Part shown: positions 10,320 to 25,223 of the stretch, piece by piece
Layout: every line of letters begins with the position of its first letter
How positions within the stretch are numbered: the first letter of the stretch is position 1
Assembly: GCA_035620395.1 (NCBI GenBank)
Contig: DASPGW010000182.1
Span: 1 to 40,791 of the forward strand
DNA from: Desulfuromonadales bacterium
GTDB lineage: Bacteria > Desulfobacterota > Desulfuromonadia > Desulfuromonadales > DASPGW01
Direction of reading: 5' to 3'
DNA length: 40,791 bases
Notes under the pieces: model-generated
Told to the model about the DNA's origin: nothing
The model's database searches: none
What the model saw: only the letters and a program-made list of their open reading frames with translations
Program-made: the position numbers and the translations under genes

Positions 10320-13821
<3,502 letters not shown>

Positions 13822-13840
13822 GATAATTCGAACTCATCAT

Positions 13841-13870
13841 GAAAAAAGCCTTTTCACAAAGGCTTTTTTC
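13841..13870. terminator. Bidirectional-looking hairpin terminator between dnaN and recF
   Basis: A perfect 13-bp stem (GAAAAAAGCCTTT with its complement) closes on a TCAC loop, with the T-run inside the downstream arm in either direction. It should end dnaA-dnaN transcripts 20 nt after the dnaN stop codon and limit entry into recF-gyrB-gyrA. Confidence 0.8.
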
Positions 13871-13890
13871 ATCACCAATCCGGCATTTTT

Positions 13891-15009
13891 CTACAGTCGC
13901 ATGGGCATGACGACGGCGAGAAAATCATCATCGCCTTTAGAACGAATGAGTCCTGGTGACAGATTATCCTTTATTTGTAGAAGAACCTGATCACCACCCT
14001 GGGCTTGAAGAATATCAATAAGATATCGGGCATTGAAACCGATGGAAATTTCTGCCCCCTCATAGAGAACTTCCATGTCTTCACGAGCATCACCCAAATC
14101 GGGGTTCGAGGAGGATAATTCCATTAAATCTTTTTTTAAAATAATTTTTACCCCACGAGACTTTTCACTTGAAAGTATAGACATGCGACGAAGCGCATGT
14201 AAAAAGGTATCTTGACCTATTTGGACAGTTAAATTATTGCTTTTAGGTATGACTCGATTATAGTCCGGAAATTCGCCGTCAACCAGGCGCATAACGACAA
14301 TGGTCTGATCTTTTTTAATAACAGCATTATTATCCATGAAACCGAGATATATTTCACTATCCCCTTCATCTGCAATTTTTTTAAGTTCGAAAATACCTTT
14401 TCGTGGAAATATTACGCCTTTTTGTAGTTGTTCTATTTGAGTATTATTAATTTCTCTTTGAATAGTAGCAAGGCGATGTCCATCTGTTGCCACCATACGG
14501 AGTAAATTTCGTCCGCTTTCTTCTAATGTTTTAAAATAAATTCCATTTAAATTATATTTGCTTTCGTCAGTTGAAATGGAAAAAAAAGTTTTTTCAATCA
14601 TCTCTTTAAGTAGAGAGCTTTTTATTATAATGAAATTATCTTCTTCAGGTTTAGGAAAATAAGGAAATTCTTCAGCAGACAATCCGACTATGTTAAAAAA
14701 AGCTTTTCCACAACGTATTTCTATCCAGCAATTTTCTTTTGAAATAAATGAAATTTCCTTTTCAGGAAGCTCTTTAATTATTTCATGAATTTTCTTTGCT
14801 GATACAGTTACTTTTCCTGGAGTTTTTACTGCAGCTGGATAAATTGCTTTCATTCCAACTTCCAGGTCTGTGGCTGTTAAATGAATTTCTCCATCACTTG
14901 CCTCTATGAGGACATTGGAAAGAATTGGAATGGTATTCCTTTTTTCTACAATCCCCTGGACGCGACTCAATCCTTTGAGAAAAACCTCCTTTTCAACCGT
15001 AAAATGCAT
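13891..15009 (-). CDS. dnaN: DNA polymerase III beta subunit (sliding clamp)
   Basis: DnaN forms the ring that tethers DNA polymerase III and other enzymes to DNA. The 372-residue product has the three-domain clamp pattern, ending in the typical clamp C-terminus VMPMRL. It starts at ATG 15009 with a textbook AAAGGAGG ribosome site. Its base composition is strikingly unlike its neighbours: the middle of the gene (14521-14640) has about 25 G or C in 120 bases, while gyrB and gyrA are near 60%. The reading frame is intact and the protein looks ordinary, so the gene is functional. It follows dnaA after 251 nt that contain DnaA boxes. Confidence 0.97.
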   Translation of the reverse strand: MHFTVEKEVFLKGLSRVQGIVEKRNTIPILSNVLIEASDGEIHLTATDLEVGMKAIYPAAVKTPGKVTVSAKKIHEIIKELPEKEISFISKENCWIEIRCGKAFFNIVGLSAEEFPYFPKPEEDNFIIIKSSLLKEMIEKTFFSISTDESKYNLNGIYFKTLEESGRNLLRMVATDGHRLATIQREINNTQIEQLQKGVIFPRKGIFELKKIADEGDSEIYLGFMDNNAVIKKDQTIVVMRLVDGEFPDYNRVIPKSNNLTVQIGQDTFLHALRRMSILSSEKSRGVKIILKKDLMELSSSNPDLGDAREDMEVLYEGAEISIGFNARYLIDILQAQGGDQVLLQIKDNLSPGLIRSKGDDDFLAVVMPMRL

Positions 15010-15039
15010 GAGGCCCTCCTTTAACAGGCTACTGTTTCT

Positions 15040-15240
15040 ATTATTTTATAAATTCTTTTAGTCTATAGTAATAATAGCTGTGAATTAGTGGATAAATTTA
15101 AATTTGTCTGTAAAAATAGTTATTTATCCTGTTTATAAACCTGTATGAAAAAACTTGCTTTCACTGGCATGTCTGTTGATAAGGTTTTAATGTTTTTAGT
15201 TTTCCCCAGCATATACCGTTTTATTCACACAGGGGGTGAA
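15040..15240. other. Candidate origin element II: AT-rich DnaA-box region between dnaN and dnaA
   Basis: The dnaA-dnaN gap is very AT-rich. It contains TTATTCACA (15221-15229, fits TTWTNCACA), TTATCCACT as AGTGGATAA on plus (15087-15095), and TTATCAACA as TGTTGATAA on plus (15174-15182), each of the last two one mismatch from consensus. The A/T stretch 15041-15080 could be an unwinding element. Together with the boxes upstream of dnaA this resembles the bipartite origins described in some bacteria. Assignment rests on sequence only. Confidence 0.55.
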
Positions 15241-15260
15241 TCGTTTTATATTGAATTTTT

Positions 15261-16619
15261 TTAGTGAAGAAAACCGTTTTTTATTCCATTAATAATGGAT
15301 CTCAATTGAAAATCCTGGTCCAACTGCTTCTCTATTTTTTTTATGGCATGAATAATAGTTGAATGGTCTTTCCCGCCGAAACGTTCGCCAATCTCTGGAT
15401 ATGAACATGATGTAAGTTGCCGTGCCAAGTACATGGCAATTTGTCGTGGTAAAACAAGGGCTTTAAGGCGCTTGGGTGATTTAAGGTCGGCGACTTTAAT
15501 ATTGAAGTGGTTCGCTACAATTTTCTGGATTTCCTCTACGGTAATTTCCCGGTTTTTTTCTACCAAAATATCTTTGAGAATTTCTCGTGCCATAGACAGA
15601 CTTACCGGTGTGGAAGTCAGGCTGGCATAAGCACCTATACGGATGAGAAAACCTTCCAATTCCCGCACATTACTGCTAACCGAAGTGGCCAGAAACTGGG
15701 TTACCTCTTCTGGCAGTTCAATTCCGTTATGTTCTGCTTTCATCTTCAATATAGCCTGTTTCGTTTCTACGTCTGGCGGTTGGATGTCGGCGATGAGTCC
15801 CCATTCAAAACGTGAACGCAGTCTTTCTTCCAACCCTGGAATTTCCTTTGGAAATTTATCTGAAGTAACAACTATTTGTTTGTGCGATTCATAAAGAGCG
15901 TTGAACGTGTGAAAAAATTCTTCCTGGGTTCGCTCTTTACCTGCAATAAACTGAACATCATCTATTAGAAGGACGTCCATGGAACGAAATTTGTTGCGAA
16001 ATTCATCCATCTTTGCATATCTTAAGGAATTGATGAGCTCATTCATGAATTTTTCCGAGGTGTAGTAGCATACCCGCATCCCGGGATTTTTTTTCATGAT
16101 GGCATTGCCGATGGCATTCACCAAATGCGTTTTTCCAAGTCCAACCCCACCGTAAATAAATAAAGGATTGTAGGTTGTCGCCGGGTTGCTTGCTACGGCC
16201 ATTGCTGCTGCATAGGCGAACTGATTGGATGAACCAGCAACAAATTCATCGAAAACATACTTGCTATTAATGTTTCCCGTTCCGTTCCATTCACGCTGTT
16301 GGTTTTCTCGTGAAATATCAACCGGGGGAATATGACGAGTCGTTTCAATCTCGGAAATATTGGATTCCTTTTCCTGGAGATTGTTCCTGATTTCCAGTTG
16401 AATTCGATAGGCCACAGCGCCAATTCGGGAAACAGTTTCCCGGATCATCGGTATATAGTGGTCCCGTATCCAGTCACGGACGAAGCGGTTGGGAACCTCC
16501 AGCCGTATTACATCCTTTTCAACGCTGACAAAGCGAATAGCCTTGATCCAGGTGGAAAAATGCTGGGGATTCAGGGATTGCTCGAGATGAGCAAGTGTTT
16601 CTTGCCAGAGTCGATTCAT
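15261..16619 (-). CDS. dnaA: Chromosomal replication initiator protein DnaA
   Basis: DnaA binds DnaA boxes at oriC, melts the DNA and loads the helicase. The 452-residue protein has an N-terminal DnaB/DiaA contact domain (1-80), a linker, the AAA+ domain with Walker A GGVGLGKT (157-164) and Walker B LLIDD (217-221), and the C-terminal DNA-binding helix-turn-helix with the family signature ending GKDHSTIIHA (416-425). Length is typical. ATG 16619 begins the canonical short N-terminal domain but lacks a clear ribosome site, which may keep translation low. The upstream promoter contains a DnaA box, implying autoregulation. It is divergent from rpmH, with dnaN downstream. Confidence 0.98.
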   Translation of the reverse strand: MNRLWQETLAHLEQSLNPQHFSTWIKAIRFVSVEKDVIRLEVPNRFVRDWIRDHYIPMIRETVSRIGAVAYRIQLEIRNNLQEKESNISEIETTRHIPPVDISRENQQREWNGTGNINSKYVFDEFVAGSSNQFAYAAAMAVASNPATTYNPLFIYGGVGLGKTHLVNAIGNAIMKKNPGMRVCYYTSEKFMNELINSLRYAKMDEFRNKFRSMDVLLIDDVQFIAGKERTQEEFFHTFNALYESHKQIVVTSDKFPKEIPGLEERLRSRFEWGLIADIQPPDVETKQAILKMKAEHNGIELPEEVTQFLATSVSSNVRELEGFLIRIGAYASLTSTPVSLSMAREILKDILVEKNREITVEEIQKIVANHFNIKVADLKSPKRLKALVLPRQIAMYLARQLTSCSYPEIGERFGGKDHSTIIHAIKKIEKQLDQDFQLRSIINGIKNGFLH

Positions 16620-16675: not shown

Positions 16676-16704
16676 TAATTAACACTTATCCACAGATTTG
16701 CCAA
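16676..16704 (-). promoter_or_regulatory. dnaA promoter with a DnaA box in its spacer
   Basis: On the minus strand TTGGCA (16704-16699), a 17-nt spacer and TAATTA (16681-16676) form a promoter about 60 nt upstream of dnaA. The spacer holds a perfect DnaA box (16686-16694), so DnaA bound there should block polymerase. Confidence 0.55.
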
Positions 16705-16740
16705 CAGTTGTGGATAATGGTTTTTTCTTATCCAAAAAGG
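16680..16740. other. Candidate origin element I: DnaA boxes between dnaA and rpmH
   Basis: Two perfect DnaA boxes face each other: TTATCCACA at 16686-16694 and its complement TGTGGATAA at 16709-16717. A weaker TTATCCAAA lies at 16728-16736. They lie in the 352-bp gap between the divergent dnaA and rpmH genes, where gene direction also switches from minus to plus, as expected at the start point of two replication forks. The rest of the gap (16741-16880) shows no gene. Confidence 0.65.
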
Positions 16741-17749: not shown

Positions 17750-19357
17750 GTGGAAAATAAAAATGTCGTAGTAGCTCTCATTCTCATGCTGGCTGTTTGG
17801 TTAGGATATTCCTTTCTTTTTCCTCCTCAGCAGCCCGCGCCTACATCTCCTCCTTCCTCGGCGCAAACCGAACCGGCACCGGTCTTGCCAGCACCATCGA
17901 TCAATATTGCGACGGGTGTAAATCAGGAGTCGTTTTCGGTTGCATCGACGGAACAGGCTGAGGCCCGCGACCTGATCATTGAGACTGAAAAGTACAGGGC
18001 AGTTTTTTCTTCCGTCGGCGCACGGCTCAAGGTATTTGAACTCAAGGAATACAGGGTTTCCCCCAAGCCTGATTCTCCTCTCGTTTCGATTGTCACATCC
18101 AGTCAGGACCGCTTCGCAACCTTGCGCACCACCGGAAGTGAGGGTTTCGCTCTTTCTGCTGATGCCCGTTATACCGTTTCAGTTGCCGAGGGTACTCTAC
18201 ATCTTGCGGCTGGTGAATCTCGTCAGGTGGTGTTCCGCTCCGTTTCTCCTGGCGGGTTGCAGATCGAAAAAATCTTTACATTCCGGGGTGATCAGTACGA
18301 TTTCGACTATCGTCTGCAGGTGACCAACGCCAGCAGTCTACCCGTCTCCGGCAACCTGAGCCTGTCTCTGGTGCATCAATGGGACGATTCCCAGGAAGGT
18401 GGTCAGCTTGAGTTTGTCGGTCCGGCAACACTGGCGGCCGATAAGCTGCACACCGATCAGGTCGACGATCTGGTCAAAGAGCCCCGCTCCTACGGGCAGG
18501 ACGTCGTCTGGAGTGCTTTCGAGGATAAGTACTTCCTGAAAGCTGCCATTCCTTTGGAAGGGGCGGTTCAAAAGGTACTGGTGCAGAAAGATGCCGATAT
18601 TGTCGAGAACGTTTTCGTCGCCCCAACTCGCACCCTGCACACCGGTGAAACCTTTTCGCTTGACTATCTTCTCTATTTTGGGCCCAAGGATCTTGATATC
18701 CTCAAGGTTGTCGATCATCAACTGGCTCGAGCTGTCGATTTTGGTTTTTTCGCTCCTATTGCCAGGCCGCTATTATACGTACTTAAATTTTTCTATTCCT
18801 TCATCGGCAACTATGGTGTTGCCATTATTTTACTGACAGCGATCATCAAGGCACTCTTCTGGCCGCTGACCCAGAAAAGCTACAGCTCGATGAAGGCGAT
18901 GCAGAAGCTGCAGCCGGAGATGCTGCGGATCAAGGAGAAATACAAGAATGATCGCGAACGGCTGAATCGTGAGACCATGGAGCTTTACAAGACGAATCGG
19001 GTTAACCCTTTGGGGGGCTGTCTCCCGATGCTGGTGCAGATTCCCGTATTTTTCGCTTTATATAAAGTTCTTCTGGATGCTATTGAGTTACGGCACGCCC
19101 CTTTTGCGCTCTGGCTCACCGATCTGTCTGCCAAGGATCCCTATTACATTACTCCGATCGTCATGGGCGCCACCATGTTCATCCAGCAGAAGATGACCCC
19201 CACGAACATGGATCCAATGCAAGCAAAGATGTTCATGATCATGCCGATCGTCTTTACTTTTCTCTTTTTGAATTTTCCTTCCGGTCTGGTCATCTACTGG
19301 TTGGTCAACAACGTGCTAACCATTGTCCAGCAATTTTTCATCAATCGGAAAGCCTGA
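17750..19357 (+). CDS. yidC: Membrane protein insertase YidC
   Basis: YidC inserts and folds inner-membrane proteins, alone or with SecYEG; the F0 subunit c of ATP synthase is a classic client. The 535-residue protein has an N-terminal membrane segment, a large periplasmic beta domain (about residues 55-330) and the conserved C-terminal insertase core with GNYGVAIILLTAIIKALFWPLT and NPLGGCLPMLVQIPVFFALY. This is the long Gram-negative form. The start is GTG 17750, chosen for AGGAG 7 nt upstream; a TTG at 17726 has no ribosome site. The jag gene, often found next, is absent: 96 nt without a gene lead directly to mnmE. Confidence 0.97.
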   Translation: MENKNVVVALILMLAVWLGYSFLFPPQQPAPTSPPSSAQTEPAPVLPAPSINIATGVNQESFSVASTEQAEARDLIIETEKYRAVFSSVGARLKVFELKEYRVSPKPDSPLVSIVTSSQDRFATLRTTGSEGFALSADARYTVSVAEGTLHLAAGESRQVVFRSVSPGGLQIEKIFTFRGDQYDFDYRLQVTNASSLPVSGNLSLSLVHQWDDSQEGGQLEFVGPATLAADKLHTDQVDDLVKEPRSYGQDVVWSAFEDKYFLKAAIPLEGAVQKVLVQKDADIVENVFVAPTRTLHTGETFSLDYLLYFGPKDLDILKVVDHQLARAVDFGFFAPIARPLLYVLKFFYSFIGNYGVAIILLTAIIKALFWPLTQKSYSSMKAMQKLQPEMLRIKEKYKNDRERLNRETMELYKTNRVNPLGGCLPMLVQIPVFFALYKVLLDAIELRHAPFALWLTDLSAKDPYYITPIVMGATMFIQQKMTPTNMDPMQAKMFMIMPIVFTFLFLNFPSGLVIYWLVNNVLTIVQQFFINRKA

Positions 19358-19453
19358 TCGCAAAAGCACCGCTTCGGCCCTTTGTTGCGCAAAACGACAA
19401 TTTGCGGCGAGTCAGGTGCACGAACACCGCACAAACACTAACTTTTATCCAGC

Positions 19454-20830
19454 ATGATTGCCGATTGCCACCAGACCATTATTGCCCCGGCCACCCCTCC
19501 CGGCGAGGGAGGGGTGGGTATCATACGCCTTTCCGGAAGGCTGGCCGAACCCGCCCTCCTTCGCTTTTTTCATCCTTCAAGACGGCCCTCTACCCTTGCT
19601 TCGCATCGCCTGTATCACGGCCATGTCTGTAGCCTTGCGGGTGAATTGATCGATGAGGTGCTGGCGGTGGTCATGCGCGCACCCCACTCGTTCACTCGAG
19701 AGGATGTGGCAGAGATCCATTGCCACGGTGGACCCGTCGTAACGAAGCGCGTTCTCGACCTCTTTCTGGGAAACGGCGATGTGCGGCTAGCCCGACCCGG
19801 TGAATTCACCCTGCGAGCCTTTCTTAATGGTCGCCTCGATTTGACTCAGGCGGAAGCCGTCATCGATGTTATTCGTTCCCGTTCGGAGGCTGCCTGTAGC
19901 GTAGCGATGCGCCAACTGGACGGGCGTCTGTCTCATGCAATTCACCAGTTTCGCAGCGAGTTGGCCGATTTGCTCGCCTTCCTTGAAGCCCACATTGACT
20001 TCCCCGAAGAGGACATAGATCTGCCCGGCCAGAGACGTCTGGTGGCAGATGGTCGCGACGTGCTGAACCGGATGGATCTTCTGCTGGCCACCTTCGATGA
20101 GGGGCGGGCCCTGCGGGAGGGCCTTTCGGTGCTGATCCTTGGACGTCCGAATGTCGGGAAAAGTTCTTTGTTGAATGCCCTTCTCGGCGAGGCGCGTGCG
20201 ATCGTTACCGATGTCCCTGGCACCACTCGCGACACGATCGAGGAGTCACTGTCGCTCGGTGGACTTCCCTTGCGGTTGATCGATACGGCAGGCATTCGTG
20301 ACACGGTTGATCCGGTTGAAGCTGAAGGGGTTCGGCGGGCACAGAGCAAGGTCGCCTCGGCCGACCTGATCCTGCTGGTTGTCGATGGCAGCGAGAACAT
20401 CCGGGACGAGGATCTTTTGGCACTAAAGGCGTGCAAGGGATCCCGTCTTATTCTGGTCGTCAGCAAGCGGGATCTGCCTGCGGTTCCACTGCCCGAGCCG
20501 TTCGCTTCGCTCCCTTCAGTTCGGCTGTCAGCACGTACGGGAGAGGGCCTGTCGGAGTTGACTCAGCGCATCATCGCTTTGTTTTCCACCACCACTTCTC
20601 GCGAGGGGCAGGAGTCCGTTCTGCTCTCCGACCGTCGGCATCGAGATGCGCTGTTGCGAGCTCGGCGAGCGCTTGGCCATTTTTGTTCCGAAGCCCAAGC
20701 CACCACTTCTCTCGAGTTTCTGGCGATCGACCTGCATGAGGCATTGCAGGCTTTGGGGGAGATTACCGGCGAAACCACCCCCGACGACATACTCGACCGG
20801 ATATTCTCTCGTTTCTGTATAGGCAAGTGA
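19454..20830 (+). CDS. mnmE: tRNA modification GTPase MnmE
   Basis: MnmE works with MnmG to add a carboxymethylaminomethyl group at U34 in the wobble position of certain tRNAs. The 458-residue protein has the N-terminal folate-binding domain (IIAPATPPGEGGVGIIRLSG), the inserted G domain with GRPNVGKS (230-237), DVPGTTRDT (from Asp253) and DTAG (277-280), and the C-terminal CIGK whose Cys is conserved for function. Length is normal. ATG 19454 lacks a clear ribosome site. Its partner mnmG follows after 98 nt, which contain a parS site. Confidence 0.97.
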   Translation: MIADCHQTIIAPATPPGEGGVGIIRLSGRLAEPALLRFFHPSRRPSTLASHRLYHGHVCSLAGELIDEVLAVVMRAPHSFTREDVAEIHCHGGPVVTKRVLDLFLGNGDVRLARPGEFTLRAFLNGRLDLTQAEAVIDVIRSRSEAACSVAMRQLDGRLSHAIHQFRSELADLLAFLEAHIDFPEEDIDLPGQRRLVADGRDVLNRMDLLLATFDEGRALREGLSVLILGRPNVGKSSLLNALLGEARAIVTDVPGTTRDTIEESLSLGGLPLRLIDTAGIRDTVDPVEAEGVRRAQSKVASADLILLVVDGSENIRDEDLLALKACKGSRLILVVSKRDLPAVPLPEPFASLPSVRLSARTGEGLSELTQRIIALFSTTTSREGQESVLLSDRRHRDALLRARRALGHFCSEAQATTSLEFLAIDLHEALQALGEITGETTPDDILDRIFSRFCIGK

Positions 20831-20834
20831 GGGC

Positions 20835-20850
20835 TGTTTCACGTGAAACA
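20835..20850. promoter_or_regulatory. parS: parS centromere site, perfect match
   Basis: TGTTTCACGTGAAACA is a perfect 16-bp palindrome and equals the parS consensus bound by ParB in many bacteria. It lies 5 nt after the mnmE stop codon, 4 kb from the candidate origin and 3.5 kb before parB. ParB should load here and, with ParA, move the origin regions apart. Confidence 0.95.
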
Positions 20851-20928
20851 AATCGTCAATGTTCTGATTTTGTTGGTATTTGGACGTTTTGAGCGGTTTG
20901 GCCGTGGCAGATTGCCAGGCGTGGAGAG

Positions 20929-22806
20929 ATGATGTCGACCTATGGGAAAGAATATCAGGTAATCGTGGTTGGAGCCGGGCATGCAGGCTGCGAGGCGGCT
21001 TTGGCTGCAGCACGCATGGGTTGCAGGACGCTGCTGTTGAATCTTAGTCTCGACGCGGTGGCCCAGATGTCGTGTAATCCGGCCATTGGTGGTTTGGCCA
21101 AGGGGCACCTGGTAAAAGAGATTGACGCCCTGGGTGGTGAGATGGCGAGAAATATAGATGCCACCGGAATCCAGTTCCGCATGCTCAATACAAAGAAGGG
21201 GCCAGCGGTGCATGCCTCCCGTGCCCAGGCTGACCGCCGCCGCTACGCGGAACGTATGAAGCGGGTCGTCGAGGGACAACCCCTGCTAGACCTTAAGCAG
21301 GGAGCTGTTGCCAGGCTGCTGTTGCAGGGAAACCGTGTCGCTGGTGTCGAAACCAGAGAGGGAATTGTTTTTCGCGGGCAGACGGTTGTCCTGACCACCG
21401 GGACCTTCATGCGCGGTCTTATCCATATCGGGCTGCATCACTATCCGGGCGGCAGGGCGGGTGAGCCCCCTTCGGAGGGTCTCTCCGACCACCTGCGGGC
21501 ACTCGGTTTTAGGGTGGGCAGGCTGAAAACGGGAACCCCTGCCCGTCTTGATGCGCGCAGTATCGACTTCAGCCGCCTCGAGCCACAGTACGGAGATACC
21601 CCTCCCCGCCCCTTTTCTTTTCTCACTGACGAAATTGTGGAGCGACAGGTCCCTTGTCATATAACCTGGACAAATGGTCGGACACACGAATTTATTCGTG
21701 GCGGCCTGGATCGCTCGCCTCTCTACAGTGGAGTCATTGAAGGGGTCGGACCGCGATATTGCCCCTCCATAGAGGACAAGGTGGTTCGTTTTCCGGAGAA
21801 GGAAAAGCACCAGATATTTCTCGAACCCGAGGGTCTGGCGAGCATGGAGGTCTACCCCAATGGTGTCTCCACCTCTCTGCCGCCTGATGTTCAACTGGCT
21901 TTCCTGAGGACGATCGAAGGGTTGGAGCAGGTGGAGGTCATGCGTCCCGGCTACGCCATCGAGTATGACTACGTCGATCCAATCCAGTTGACCCCAACCC
22001 TGGAAACCAAGGAAGTTGAAGGCCTTTTTCATGCCGGGCAGATCAACGGCACCTCGGGCTACGAGGAGGCCGCCGCCCAGGGGCTGTTGGCCGGGATCAA
22101 TGCGGCCCTGCGGGTGCGGGGCGATGAGCCTCTGGTGTTACGTCGTGACCAGGCATATATCGGCGTGTTGATTGATGACCTGATCAATCTCGGGACCAGC
22201 GAGCCCTATCGCATGTTCACCTCCAGGGCAGAGTATCGTCTGCTGCTGCGGGAAGATAACGCCGATCAGCGACTTACCGGCATTGGCTATCGGCTGGGCT
22301 TGGCGACGGAAGCGCGCTGGTTGCAGTACGAAAGGAAGATGGAGCTGTTGGAGAGGGGACGAGAGCGCCTAAGCCATGTTCGGTTGGCGCCCTCGGACCG
22401 GCCGGCGTTGTCGCAACTCGGCCTGGACGAACTGAAAAATGGGGCATCCCTGGAAGAGTTGCTGCGGCGTCCGGAAATTACGATCGATGCGCTCCTTTTT
22501 CTCGATCCGGAGCTTTCCGGACTCCCTCCCGAGGCTCTCGAGCAGTTGGAGATCGGCATCAAATACGCCGGCTATATCGAGCGGCAATTGGAGCAGGTAG
22601 AACGCTCTCGCCGGACCGAGGAGGTGGCGATCCCGGCCGCCTTCGATTACGATGCAGTCAGTGGTTTCTCCATTGAGGTGCGTGATAAGCTGAAGAAGGT
22701 GCGGCCTCTTACCCTCGGCCAGGCCGCCCGGATTCCTGGTGTGACGCCGGCCGCTATTGGCATTCTGGCCGTCCAGTTGCGCCGGAGGCGAGATGGAGTC
22801 TCTTGA
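20929..22806 (+). CDS. mnmG: tRNA uridine-5-carboxymethylaminomethyl synthesis enzyme MnmG (GidA)
   Basis: MnmG is the FAD- and NADH-dependent partner of MnmE in wobble-uridine modification. The 625-residue protein has the FAD-binding loop GAGHAGCEAA (15-24), the family block SCNPAIGGLAKGHLVKEIDALGG with its conserved catalytic Cys, and the second signature GQINGTSGYEEAAAQGL. Length is typical. Two ATG codons stand in tandem (20929 and 20932); GGAGAG lies immediately before, so the second may be used. rsmG overlaps its end by 14 nt. Confidence 0.97.
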   Translation: MMSTYGKEYQVIVVGAGHAGCEAALAAARMGCRTLLLNLSLDAVAQMSCNPAIGGLAKGHLVKEIDALGGEMARNIDATGIQFRMLNTKKGPAVHASRAQADRRRYAERMKRVVEGQPLLDLKQGAVARLLLQGNRVAGVETREGIVFRGQTVVLTTGTFMRGLIHIGLHHYPGGRAGEPPSEGLSDHLRALGFRVGRLKTGTPARLDARSIDFSRLEPQYGDTPPRPFSFLTDEIVERQVPCHITWTNGRTHEFIRGGLDRSPLYSGVIEGVGPRYCPSIEDKVVRFPEKEKHQIFLEPEGLASMEVYPNGVSTSLPPDVQLAFLRTIEGLEQVEVMRPGYAIEYDYVDPIQLTPTLETKEVEGLFHAGQINGTSGYEEAAAQGLLAGINAALRVRGDEPLVLRRDQAYIGVLIDDLINLGTSEPYRMFTSRAEYRLLLREDNADQRLTGIGYRLGLATEARWLQYERKMELLERGRERLSHVRLAPSDRPALSQLGLDELKNGASLEELLRRPEITIDALLFLDPELSGLPPEALEQLEIGIKYAGYIERQLEQVERSRRTEEVAIPAAFDYDAVSGFSIEVRDKLKKVRPLTLGQAARIPGVTPAAIGILAVQLRRRRDGVS

Positions 22807-23446
22807 ACATCTCGTCCGCCAGCTCCGGCCGCTCTCCCTTGAGGTGCCTTTGGGCGCCCACGAAAAGCTGCTGCGCCTGCTCGATGAGTTGCTGCGCTGG
22901 AACCGTACCCACAATCTGACCGCCATTACCGATCCGGTCGAGGGAATAGAAAAGCATCTGGTCGATTCCCTCACCCCGCTGCAGTTGCTGGCCGGCAACG
23001 AGCGATTGCTTGATCTCGGCTCGGGCGGCGGTTTTCCCGGCCTACCGCTGAAGATCGCCCGACCCGGCTTATCCATCGTCTCTGTCGACTCGGTGGCCAA
23101 GAAAATCAACTTCCAGCGCCACGCCGCCCGCCTGCTCGGTCTGCGGGGATTCGAGCCGCTGCATGCCCGGGCCGAATCCCTGCCGAAGCGCCCCGGGTAC
23201 GCCGGCGGCTTCGATGTGGTCGTTTCGCGTGCCTTTGCTTCTCTCCCTGCCTTTGCCGCCCTGGCCCTTCCCTGTCTGCAGCCGGGGGGGAGAATCCTGG
23301 CGATGAAGGGGGCGGAAGGTGAGAGGGAGCTGGCCGAAGCGGAAAGCGAATTGGCGGAGCTCGGACTGTTATGCACCGAACTGCGACAGTTGCGACTGCC
23401 AGCCTCGGGGGCGCTGCGCTGCCTGCTGGTTTTACGGCGTCGCTAG
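22793..23446 (+). CDS. rsmG: 16S rRNA (guanine-N7) methyltransferase RsmG (GidB)
   Basis: RsmG methylates N7 of G527 (E. coli numbering) in 16S rRNA with S-adenosylmethionine. The 217-residue protein has the family N-terminus WNRTHNLTAI, the SAM loop LLDLGSGGGFPGLPL and VVSRAFASLP. ATG 22793 has GGAGG 4 nt upstream and gives MESLEHL; an upstream frame to 22757 lies within mnmG and was rejected. It overlaps mnmG by 14 nt, so translation is likely coupled. Confidence 0.96.
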   Translation: MESLEHLVRQLRPLSLEVPLGAHEKLLRLLDELLRWNRTHNLTAITDPVEGIEKHLVDSLTPLQLLAGNERLLDLGSGGGFPGLPLKIARPGLSIVSVDSVAKKINFQRHAARLLGLRGFEPLHARAESLPKRPGYAGGFDVVVSRAFASLPAFAALALPCLQPGGRILAMKGAEGERELAEAESELAELGLLCTELRQLRLPASGALRCLLVLRRR

Positions 23447-23600
23447 CCAGTCCAGCACAAGATGTTGGGGGGCGTGGGAGACGGCGACACCAGATGTCCA
23501 AGAGCCCTCAACCAGCGAGGTTTCGGCGCCTTTTTCCTTTTCTGGCAAGGGGGTTTGTGGTACTCTTTTCGCCCCGGAGCAGCACGCAAGGAGATAAGGT

Positions 23601-24362
23601 ATGGCGCAGATCATCGCCGTTGCCAATCAAAAGGGTGGAGTGGGAAAGACGACCACGTCAGTGAACCTGGCGGCGTCTCTGGCAGCTGCAGAGAAGCGAA
23701 CCCTTTTGGTCGACATGGATCCCCAGGCCAATGCCTGCAGCGGCATCGGTCTCAACAAGAGCACCCAGGAGCGGACGGTCTACAATGCGTTGCTCGGGGA
23801 AGAGTCGGCTCGGGACGTACTGGTTCACACCTCTCTGCAGCATCTGGACGTCCTTCCCTCCAACACCGACCTGATCGGCGCCGAGATCGAACTGGTGACA
23901 GCCTTCTCCCGGGAGCGAAAGCTGCTGGGGGTTCTGGAGCCGCTGCGCGACGACTACGACTTCATTGTCATCGACTGCCCGCCATCCCTGGGCCTGCTTA
24001 CCGTAAATGCGCTGACCGCTGCCGACTCGGTGCTGGTCCCCCTGCAGTGCGAGTTCTACGCCATGGAGGGGTTGAGCCAGTTGATGAACACCATCCGCCT
24101 CATCCAGAAAGAGCTCAACCCGCGACTGAAGATCCACGGCATCCTGTTGACCATGTTCGATTCCCGCAATAATCTGTCGCATCAGGTCAGCGAGGAGATT
24201 CGCCGGCATTTCACCGACCAAGTATTTACCACGGTCATCCCCCGTAATGTTCGCCTCTCCGAGGCACCGAGTCACGGACTCCCCGTCCTGCTCTACGACA
24301 TCAGTTCGCGCGGGGCAACGGCCTATCTCGAACTGGCGAAGGAAATCATCGACCTAAGGTAG
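23601..24362 (+). CDS. parA: Chromosome partitioning ATPase ParA (Soj)
   Basis: ParA binds DNA non-specifically in its ATP dimer form and draws ParB-parS complexes apart as ParB triggers its hydrolysis. The 253-residue protein has the deviant Walker A KGGVGKTT (11-18), LLVDMDPQANA and IDCPPSLGLLT. It lacks the N-terminal DNA-binding extension of plasmid ParA proteins, matching the chromosomal Soj type. AAGGAG precedes ATG 23601 by 8 nt. The 154-nt gap upstream has a weak extended -10 (TGGTACTCT near 23560) that might drive parAB. parB follows after 6 nt. Confidence 0.96.
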   Translation: MAQIIAVANQKGGVGKTTTSVNLAASLAAAEKRTLLVDMDPQANACSGIGLNKSTQERTVYNALLGEESARDVLVHTSLQHLDVLPSNTDLIGAEIELVTAFSRERKLLGVLEPLRDDYDFIVIDCPPSLGLLTVNALTAADSVLVPLQCEFYAMEGLSQLMNTIRLIQKELNPRLKIHGILLTMFDSRNNLSHQVSEEIRRHFTDQVFTTVIPRNVRLSEAPSHGLPVLLYDISSRGATAYLELAKEIIDLR

Positions 24363-24368
24363 CAAACC

Positions 24369-25223
24369 ATGAGCAAACGACCTTCCCTTGGAAAGGGGAT
24401 CGGTGCCCTCCTCAGCTCGGCAACCCAGGAAGGGGGACGGAAGTATTTTCTCTGTCCTATCGAGGAGTTGCGGCCGCACAGCAACCAGCCGCGGAAGACC
24501 TTCAACGATGAGAAGATGGCAGAGTTGGTCGCTTCGATTCGCGAAAAGGGCATCATCCAGCCCTTGGTGGTCCGCCGTCACGGAGATCACTACCAGATCA
24601 TCGCCGGCGAGCGGCGCTGGCGAGCCTCGCAGAAGGCGGGCCTGCGCGAGGTTCCGGTGGTCATCCAGGATGTTTCGGAAGACTGGGCCCTTGAGCTGGC
24701 GTTGATCGAAAACATCCAACGCGAAGATCTCAACGCTATCGAGGAGGCCGAAGCTTACCGCAATCTCATCGACGTCTTCGACCTCTCCCAGGATGAGGTG
24801 GCCAAGCGGGTTGGCAAGGACCGTTCCACCGTCGCCAATGCCCTGCGTCTTCTTCGGCTTCCGGGAAAAGTTCGCGACGATGTCGTTACGGCCCTTCTCT
24901 CCATGGGCCACGCCCGTGCCCTGCTTGCTCTGGAAACTGACGAGGATATTCTCGAGGCCAGGACGCAGGTTGTGCAGAAGCGTTTGTCCGTACGGGAGAC
25001 CGAGGCTCTGGTTAAAAAGATCAAGAGCTTCGGCCGCAGCGCTCCGAAGATGAAGGGTAAAAGCGAGGCCGACCCCGAACTGGTGCACCTGGCCGGGGAA
25101 CTTAAAAGAGCCCTGGGTACCCAGGTCAAGATTTCCGCCCGCGGAAAAGGCGGAAAAATAGAGATTTCCTATTACTCTCCCCAGGATCTTGATCGGCTCC
25201 TGGACGTTCTGGGCATTTCCTGA
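24369..25223 (+). CDS. parB: Chromosome partitioning protein ParB (Spo0J)
   Basis: ParB is a CTP-dependent DNA clamp that loads at parS and spreads along the origin region. The 284-residue protein has the N-terminal box RKTF (42-45), the CTP-binding motif GERRWR (80-85), ENIQRE (114-119), a helix-turn-helix (about 138-165) that reads parS, and a C-terminal dimer domain. All key motifs are intact. AAGGT lies upstream of ATG 24369 within the end of parA. A perfect parS lies at 20835-20850. The bactofilin gene follows after 33 nt. Confidence 0.96.
   Translation: MSKRPSLGKGIGALLSSATQEGGRKYFLCPIEELRPHSNQPRKTFNDEKMAELVASIREKGIIQPLVVRRHGDHYQIIAGERRWRASQKAGLREVPVVIQDVSEDWALELALIENIQREDLNAIEEAEAYRNLIDVFDLSQDEVAKRVGKDRSTVANALRLLRLPGKVRDDVVTALLSMGHARALLALETDEDILEARTQVVQKRLSVRETEALVKKIKSFGRSAPKMKGKSEADPELVHLAGELKRALGTQVKISARGKGGKIEISYYSPQDLDRLLDVLGIS

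Follow-up and report, generated by a model that had tools for sequence, protein, structure and literature searches.

A single origin-proximal parS site between mnmE and mnmG in a Desulfuromonadales genome, and the conservation of its address among relatives

The chromosomes of Bacillus, Caulobacter and Pseudomonas carry several parS sites. According to PMC7022226, a single parS is enough, and most species with a ParABS system have two or more of them near oriC. In Pseudomonas aeruginosa each of the four sites close to the origin suffices by itself (PMC4368675), and the review PMC7333895 describes Xanthomonas campestris as a single-parS chromosome and asks why the number of parS sites varies so widely if one often suffices. 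Thus, in the light of PMC7022226 and PMC7333895, the parS element described here is of a familiar kind, and so is its occurrence as one copy. Another paper, PMC3403914, deals with a subject other than chromosomal parS. Among titles and opening parts of abstracts, no paper on parS in Desulfuromonadales or on a parS between mnmE and mnmG was found; the single-site pattern may already be contained in the tables of the main survey, by Livny et al. (2007).

The DNA analyzed in this work (the window, 40,791 nucleotides in full) belongs to a draft genome (G000) of 3,315,834 bases in 313 contigs, 95.77% complete. Like the chromosomal ParABS systems of Bacillus, Caulobacter and Pseudomonas, it combines a generic 16-bp parS near oriC with a GERR-containing ParB that has parS-type residues, a ParA and an SMC protein; unlike them, it has one parS. 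In this respect it resembles the chromosome of X. campestris, a distant lineage that is likened here by the number of sites alone. The site is unique in the draft genome, lies close to the origin, is accompanied by genes for matching ParA, ParB and SMC proteins, and is conserved in relatives, and we consider it very probable that the chromosome has TGTTTCACGTGAAACA as its one high-affinity parS, serving a ParABS system.

The site, the origin and the segregation proteins

The palindrome TGTTTCACGTGAAACA, a perfect and exact match to the 16-bp parS and as such without strand (20835-20850), starts 4 nt past the stop codon of mnmE (20828-20830) and ends 78 bases ahead of the ATG of mnmG (20929). 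A preliminary description of this DNA had reported a perfect parS between these two genes and no second perfect copy in 40 kb; both statements hold, and the latter extends to three mismatches, since nothing else in the window matches even at this tolerance (mean for shuffled sequences 0.06). Base composition predicts 8e-6 exact copies in the window and 6e-4 in the genome. The search of the full genome proposed in the same description finds no second copy at up to two mismatches in the draft assembly; at three mismatches there are four further places versus three for a reversed-pattern control, and they therefore look like chance. Given the completeness of the draft, another site may lie in the missing DNA. 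A hidden second copy near the site can be dismissed, as the best match has seven mismatches in the remainder of the gap between mnmE and mnmG and six in mnmG. Other candidate elements were considered as well: the region 19300-23600 contains no sigma-70 promoter-like site and just one weak terminator-like site, at 23409, which speaks against a promoter or a terminator at parS, and no Rfam family was found in the window.

The gene order is gyrB-recF-dnaN-dnaA on the minus strand, followed on the plus strand by yidC, mnmE, parS, mnmG, rsmG, parA and parB, with a gene for ATP-synthase subunit b farther along. The name gyrB is presumed from the usual gene order and from 77-87% matches in relatives rather than from a family library scan, and a gene read from the sequence in the dnaA-yidC gap is taken to be rpmH. 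The remaining assignments are those of dnaA (15261-16619, minus strand, TIGR00362), mnmE, encoding a tRNA-modifying GTPase (19454-20830, plus strand, NCBIfam NF003661), mnmG, the downstream neighbour of parS (20929-22806, plus strand, TIGR00136), rsmG, taken as an open reading frame at its longest start (22757-23446, plus strand, TIGR00138), parA, encoding a ParA-type ATPase recognized by similarity and by its place beside parB, with NCBIfam matches below the cut-offs (23601-24362, plus strand), and parB, supported by TIGR00180 above the cut-off and by alignments to PDB structures (24369-25223, plus strand). The pattern TTWTNCACA occurs eight times in the window, against 1.23 expected. Between dnaA and rpmH, a motif search revealed an inverted pair of TTATCCACA DnaA boxes (16686-16717), which adjoins dnaA and likely marks the origin, so that we treat it as the candidate oriC. 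The distance from parS to this pair is 4.1 kb. The site is therefore near the origin, as described previously, although not within 4 kb of it; similarly, it lies upstream of parAB but not "just before" these genes, as the gap of 2.75 kb contains mnmG and rsmG.

Base composition is uneven around the origin. A valley of GC content (13500-16600) covers dnaN (0.36, third positions 0.26) and dnaA (0.43), in contrast to values of 0.58-0.59 in gyrB and mnmG. The valley is deeper in other members of the order (L244-L247, L249 and L250), in which recF has a GC content of 0.17-0.25 (third positions 0.08-0.17) and encodes a protein merely 24-40% identical to the RecF of the window. No paper combining all the terms of a literature search on such a valley at dnaN-recF was found. 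In G013 (L248) the valley is almost missing, and in the sampled members of the class outside the order it is mild or absent.

The genome encodes one protein with a ParB_N domain and an SMC protein (open frame of 1195 aa). The ParB contains GERR at residues 80-83 and ENIQR at residues 114-118, which we take to be the CTP motifs. Its residues 28-224 align with the ParB of 7bnk (E-value 4e-64), and it also aligns with the ParB of 6t1f (E-value 2e-52), presumably the Caulobacter protein, whose R, N, T, A, G and R residues match the spacing given in PMC7383237. According to this source, Caulobacter ParB touches parS through R173 and G201, which are absolutely conserved in ParB and replaced by Q and R in Noc, and S172 is conserved between ParB and Noc. 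In the alignment, the equivalents of R173 and G201 in the window protein are R152 and G180, indicative of parS-type specificity; T179 and A184 correspond to A158 and R163, at positions that vary among ParB proteins. A point against the parS reading is that S172 corresponds to D151. A certain likeness to Noc must be noted, as this protein has its highest NCBIfam score (249 bits) with the Noc model TIGR04285. However, this score is below the cut-off of 315 bits, the discriminating residues are R152 and G180 rather than Q and R, and the site is a parS and not an NBS. The relatives of the protein in named genomes are mostly from Desulfuromonadales, the best being 80% identical.

With a ParA ATPase gene, identified by similarity and place, adjoining parB, the locus has the composition of a ParABS system. 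The unique parS near the origin, the one parS-type ParB_N protein and the SMC together argue for an ordinary chromosomal parS of such a system, and they lend support to the earlier proposal that the origin is segregated from one strong site. By analogy to the characterized systems, ParB dimers would be loaded at positions 20835-20850, form closed clamps with bound CTP, and spread over the flanks, i.e. over mnmE-mnmG-rsmG-parAB and the dnaA side. ParA would then move the ParB-parS complex, making the two copies of the origin the first part of the chromosome to separate, and SMC is probably also loaded at parS.

Conservation of the junction site in the order

We surveyed 88 genomes of the order Desulfuromonadales, each at least 90% complete, for TGTTYCACGTGRAACA with at most one mismatch. 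The site was found in 79 of them (one match in 65 genomes, two in 12 and three in 2), and placement against MnmE and MnmG locates a parS at the mnmE-mnmG junction in all 79. The nine genomes without a match (G008, G016, G068, G069, G078, G079, G085, G087 and G095) cannot be taken as cases of parS loss, because all nine assemblies miss the 5' part of mnmG and the junction cannot be seen in them. Retention of one site across the order makes an accident or an artefact of draft assembly unlikely. The element is ordinary and its address is unusually conserved: one parS behind mnmE has been fixed order-wide. The order is a natural test group for the question of parS number, with one copy in 65 of the 79 genomes and a close pair at the junction in 10 others. 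The second copies of this kind occur in eight genomes of family f12, where they are 35-48 bp apart, and in G031 and G089. In G089 a second mnmE-mnmG junction is present on a separate contig; possibly, it represents contamination of the bin.

Both flanks could be aligned in 77 of the 79 genomes, and these 77 rows form the footprint alignment, from which two genomes were left out: G081, whose contig ends just past parS, and G039, which has an insert between mnmE and parS. One row, probably that of G089 with its two pooled loci, seems out of register and was retained. The 16 bp are nearly invariant, with 1.0-2.0 bits per column and the lowest information at positions 5 (C/T) and 12 (A/G), whereas the flanks drift and do not exceed 0.85 bits. 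In 69 of the 77 genomes parS starts at most 9 nt from the last aligned MnmE codon (counting the stop codon), while the first aligned residue of MnmG is anywhere from 4 to 1135 nt away.

Several individual junctions deserve a comment. The insert in G039 is about 0.8 kb long, leaves parS intact and carries a 179-aa open reading frame (L019:1677-2216, minus strand), which presumably encodes an IS200-type transposase, as judged by resemblance. In G046 (L183), about 1.1 kb separates parS from mnmG, and parS is still 6 nt from the last aligned MnmE codon. The same layout is seen in L037:5150-6270, with no convincing open reading frame in the gap.

It is conceivable that further, degenerate parS sites share the load and that the chromosome is not functionally single-site. 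ParB of P. aeruginosa also binds half-sites (PMC10419367), and therefore weaker sites may exist here too. Two species of genus g6 (G005 and G025) share a parS with one mismatch that lies across the origin, on its gyrB side, at 16.9-17.1 kb from the site at the junction, and part of the remaining class possesses a second site inside mnmG. On the other hand, the genome studied here lacks any match with one or two mismatches, and the 88 order genomes contain only five off-junction sites, all with one mismatch (in G066, G039, G086, G005 and G031), versus 12 for the reversed control. We therefore regard shared function with degenerate sites as unlikely. As an aside, the distal sites of genus g6 (L233:11025-11040 and L235:2496-2511) are each located directly before a terminator-like hairpin, as judged by eye.

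The address of parS in the class and its possible meaning

The class set comprises 98 genomes, of which 48 are outside the order. An exact parS is present in 39 of these 48, and a site with at most one mismatch in 46. The context was inspected in all 46, and in 39 of them a site is directly visible either at the junction or immediately ahead of mnmG. Five others (G108, G128, G134, G143 and G153) have a site within mnmG and another 1,614-1,623 bp upstream; since this is the spacing observed where both sites are visible, we infer that the upstream ones are junction sites, which would probably bring the total to 44 of 48. G113 and G151 have the site inside mnmG alone, and G120 and G138 have none.

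ParA and ParB are absent from beside rsmG in all six longer loci inspected outside the order (L257-L260, L265 and L266), some of which include little DNA beyond rsmG. In Trichlorobacter thiogenes (L093), the 9.2 kb upstream of parA contain neither mnmG nor rsmG. That parS stays at the junction outside the order, although parAB are not adjacent in the sampled loci, suggests that it is closeness to the origin that has been kept and not closeness to parAB. In the more distant bacteria among L098-L114, the parS sites found have other locations, for the most part in the interval from mnmG to parA, within parB or behind it; therefore, among the genomes examined, the junction address is a trait of Desulfuromonadia.

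The conserved address raises the question of whether the palindrome chiefly regulates mnmG, through bound ParB or another factor, with segregation being secondary. Its position ahead of mnmG, in the gap and close behind the MnmE codons, as well as its persistence in sampled class loci where parAB are not adjacent, could be explained in this way. Yet the distance to MnmG is far from constant in the order, no conserved promoter-like motif accompanies parS, and the sequence is that of a generic parS, which together make such a role very improbable. The notion that the palindrome arose by chance or is bound by some unrelated regulator, for which no supporting evidence was found, can be practically discarded, being at odds with the small expected number of copies per genome and already contradicted by the conservation of the motif at one place in 79 order genomes. 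With a segregation site as the preferred reading, it is tempting to speculate that the centromere of the class is held behind the mnmE stop codon, regardless of the place of parAB, by a second local job that makes relocation of parS intolerable. Such a job could be the timing of mnmG expression or the maintenance of a constant spacing between ParB and oriC; we consider this idea unlikely.

Two further features of the class concern the vicinity of the junction. In several genera of family f22 (L272, L274-L276, L279, L284, L290 and L243) the second parS inside the coding sequence of mnmG is situated about 1.61-1.62 kb past the junction site. In 6 of the 11 genomes of genus g58 (L219, L220, L223, L224, L225 and L226), the mnmE-mnmG gap contains two parS sites separated by an array in which a 21-bp unit is repeated about 17-28 times; the unit sequence varies by species while the period is constant. 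These arrays are not centromere-specific, as at least three of the 11 genomes (G127, G130 and G142) have related arrays at other places, and they may represent a dispersed minisatellite.
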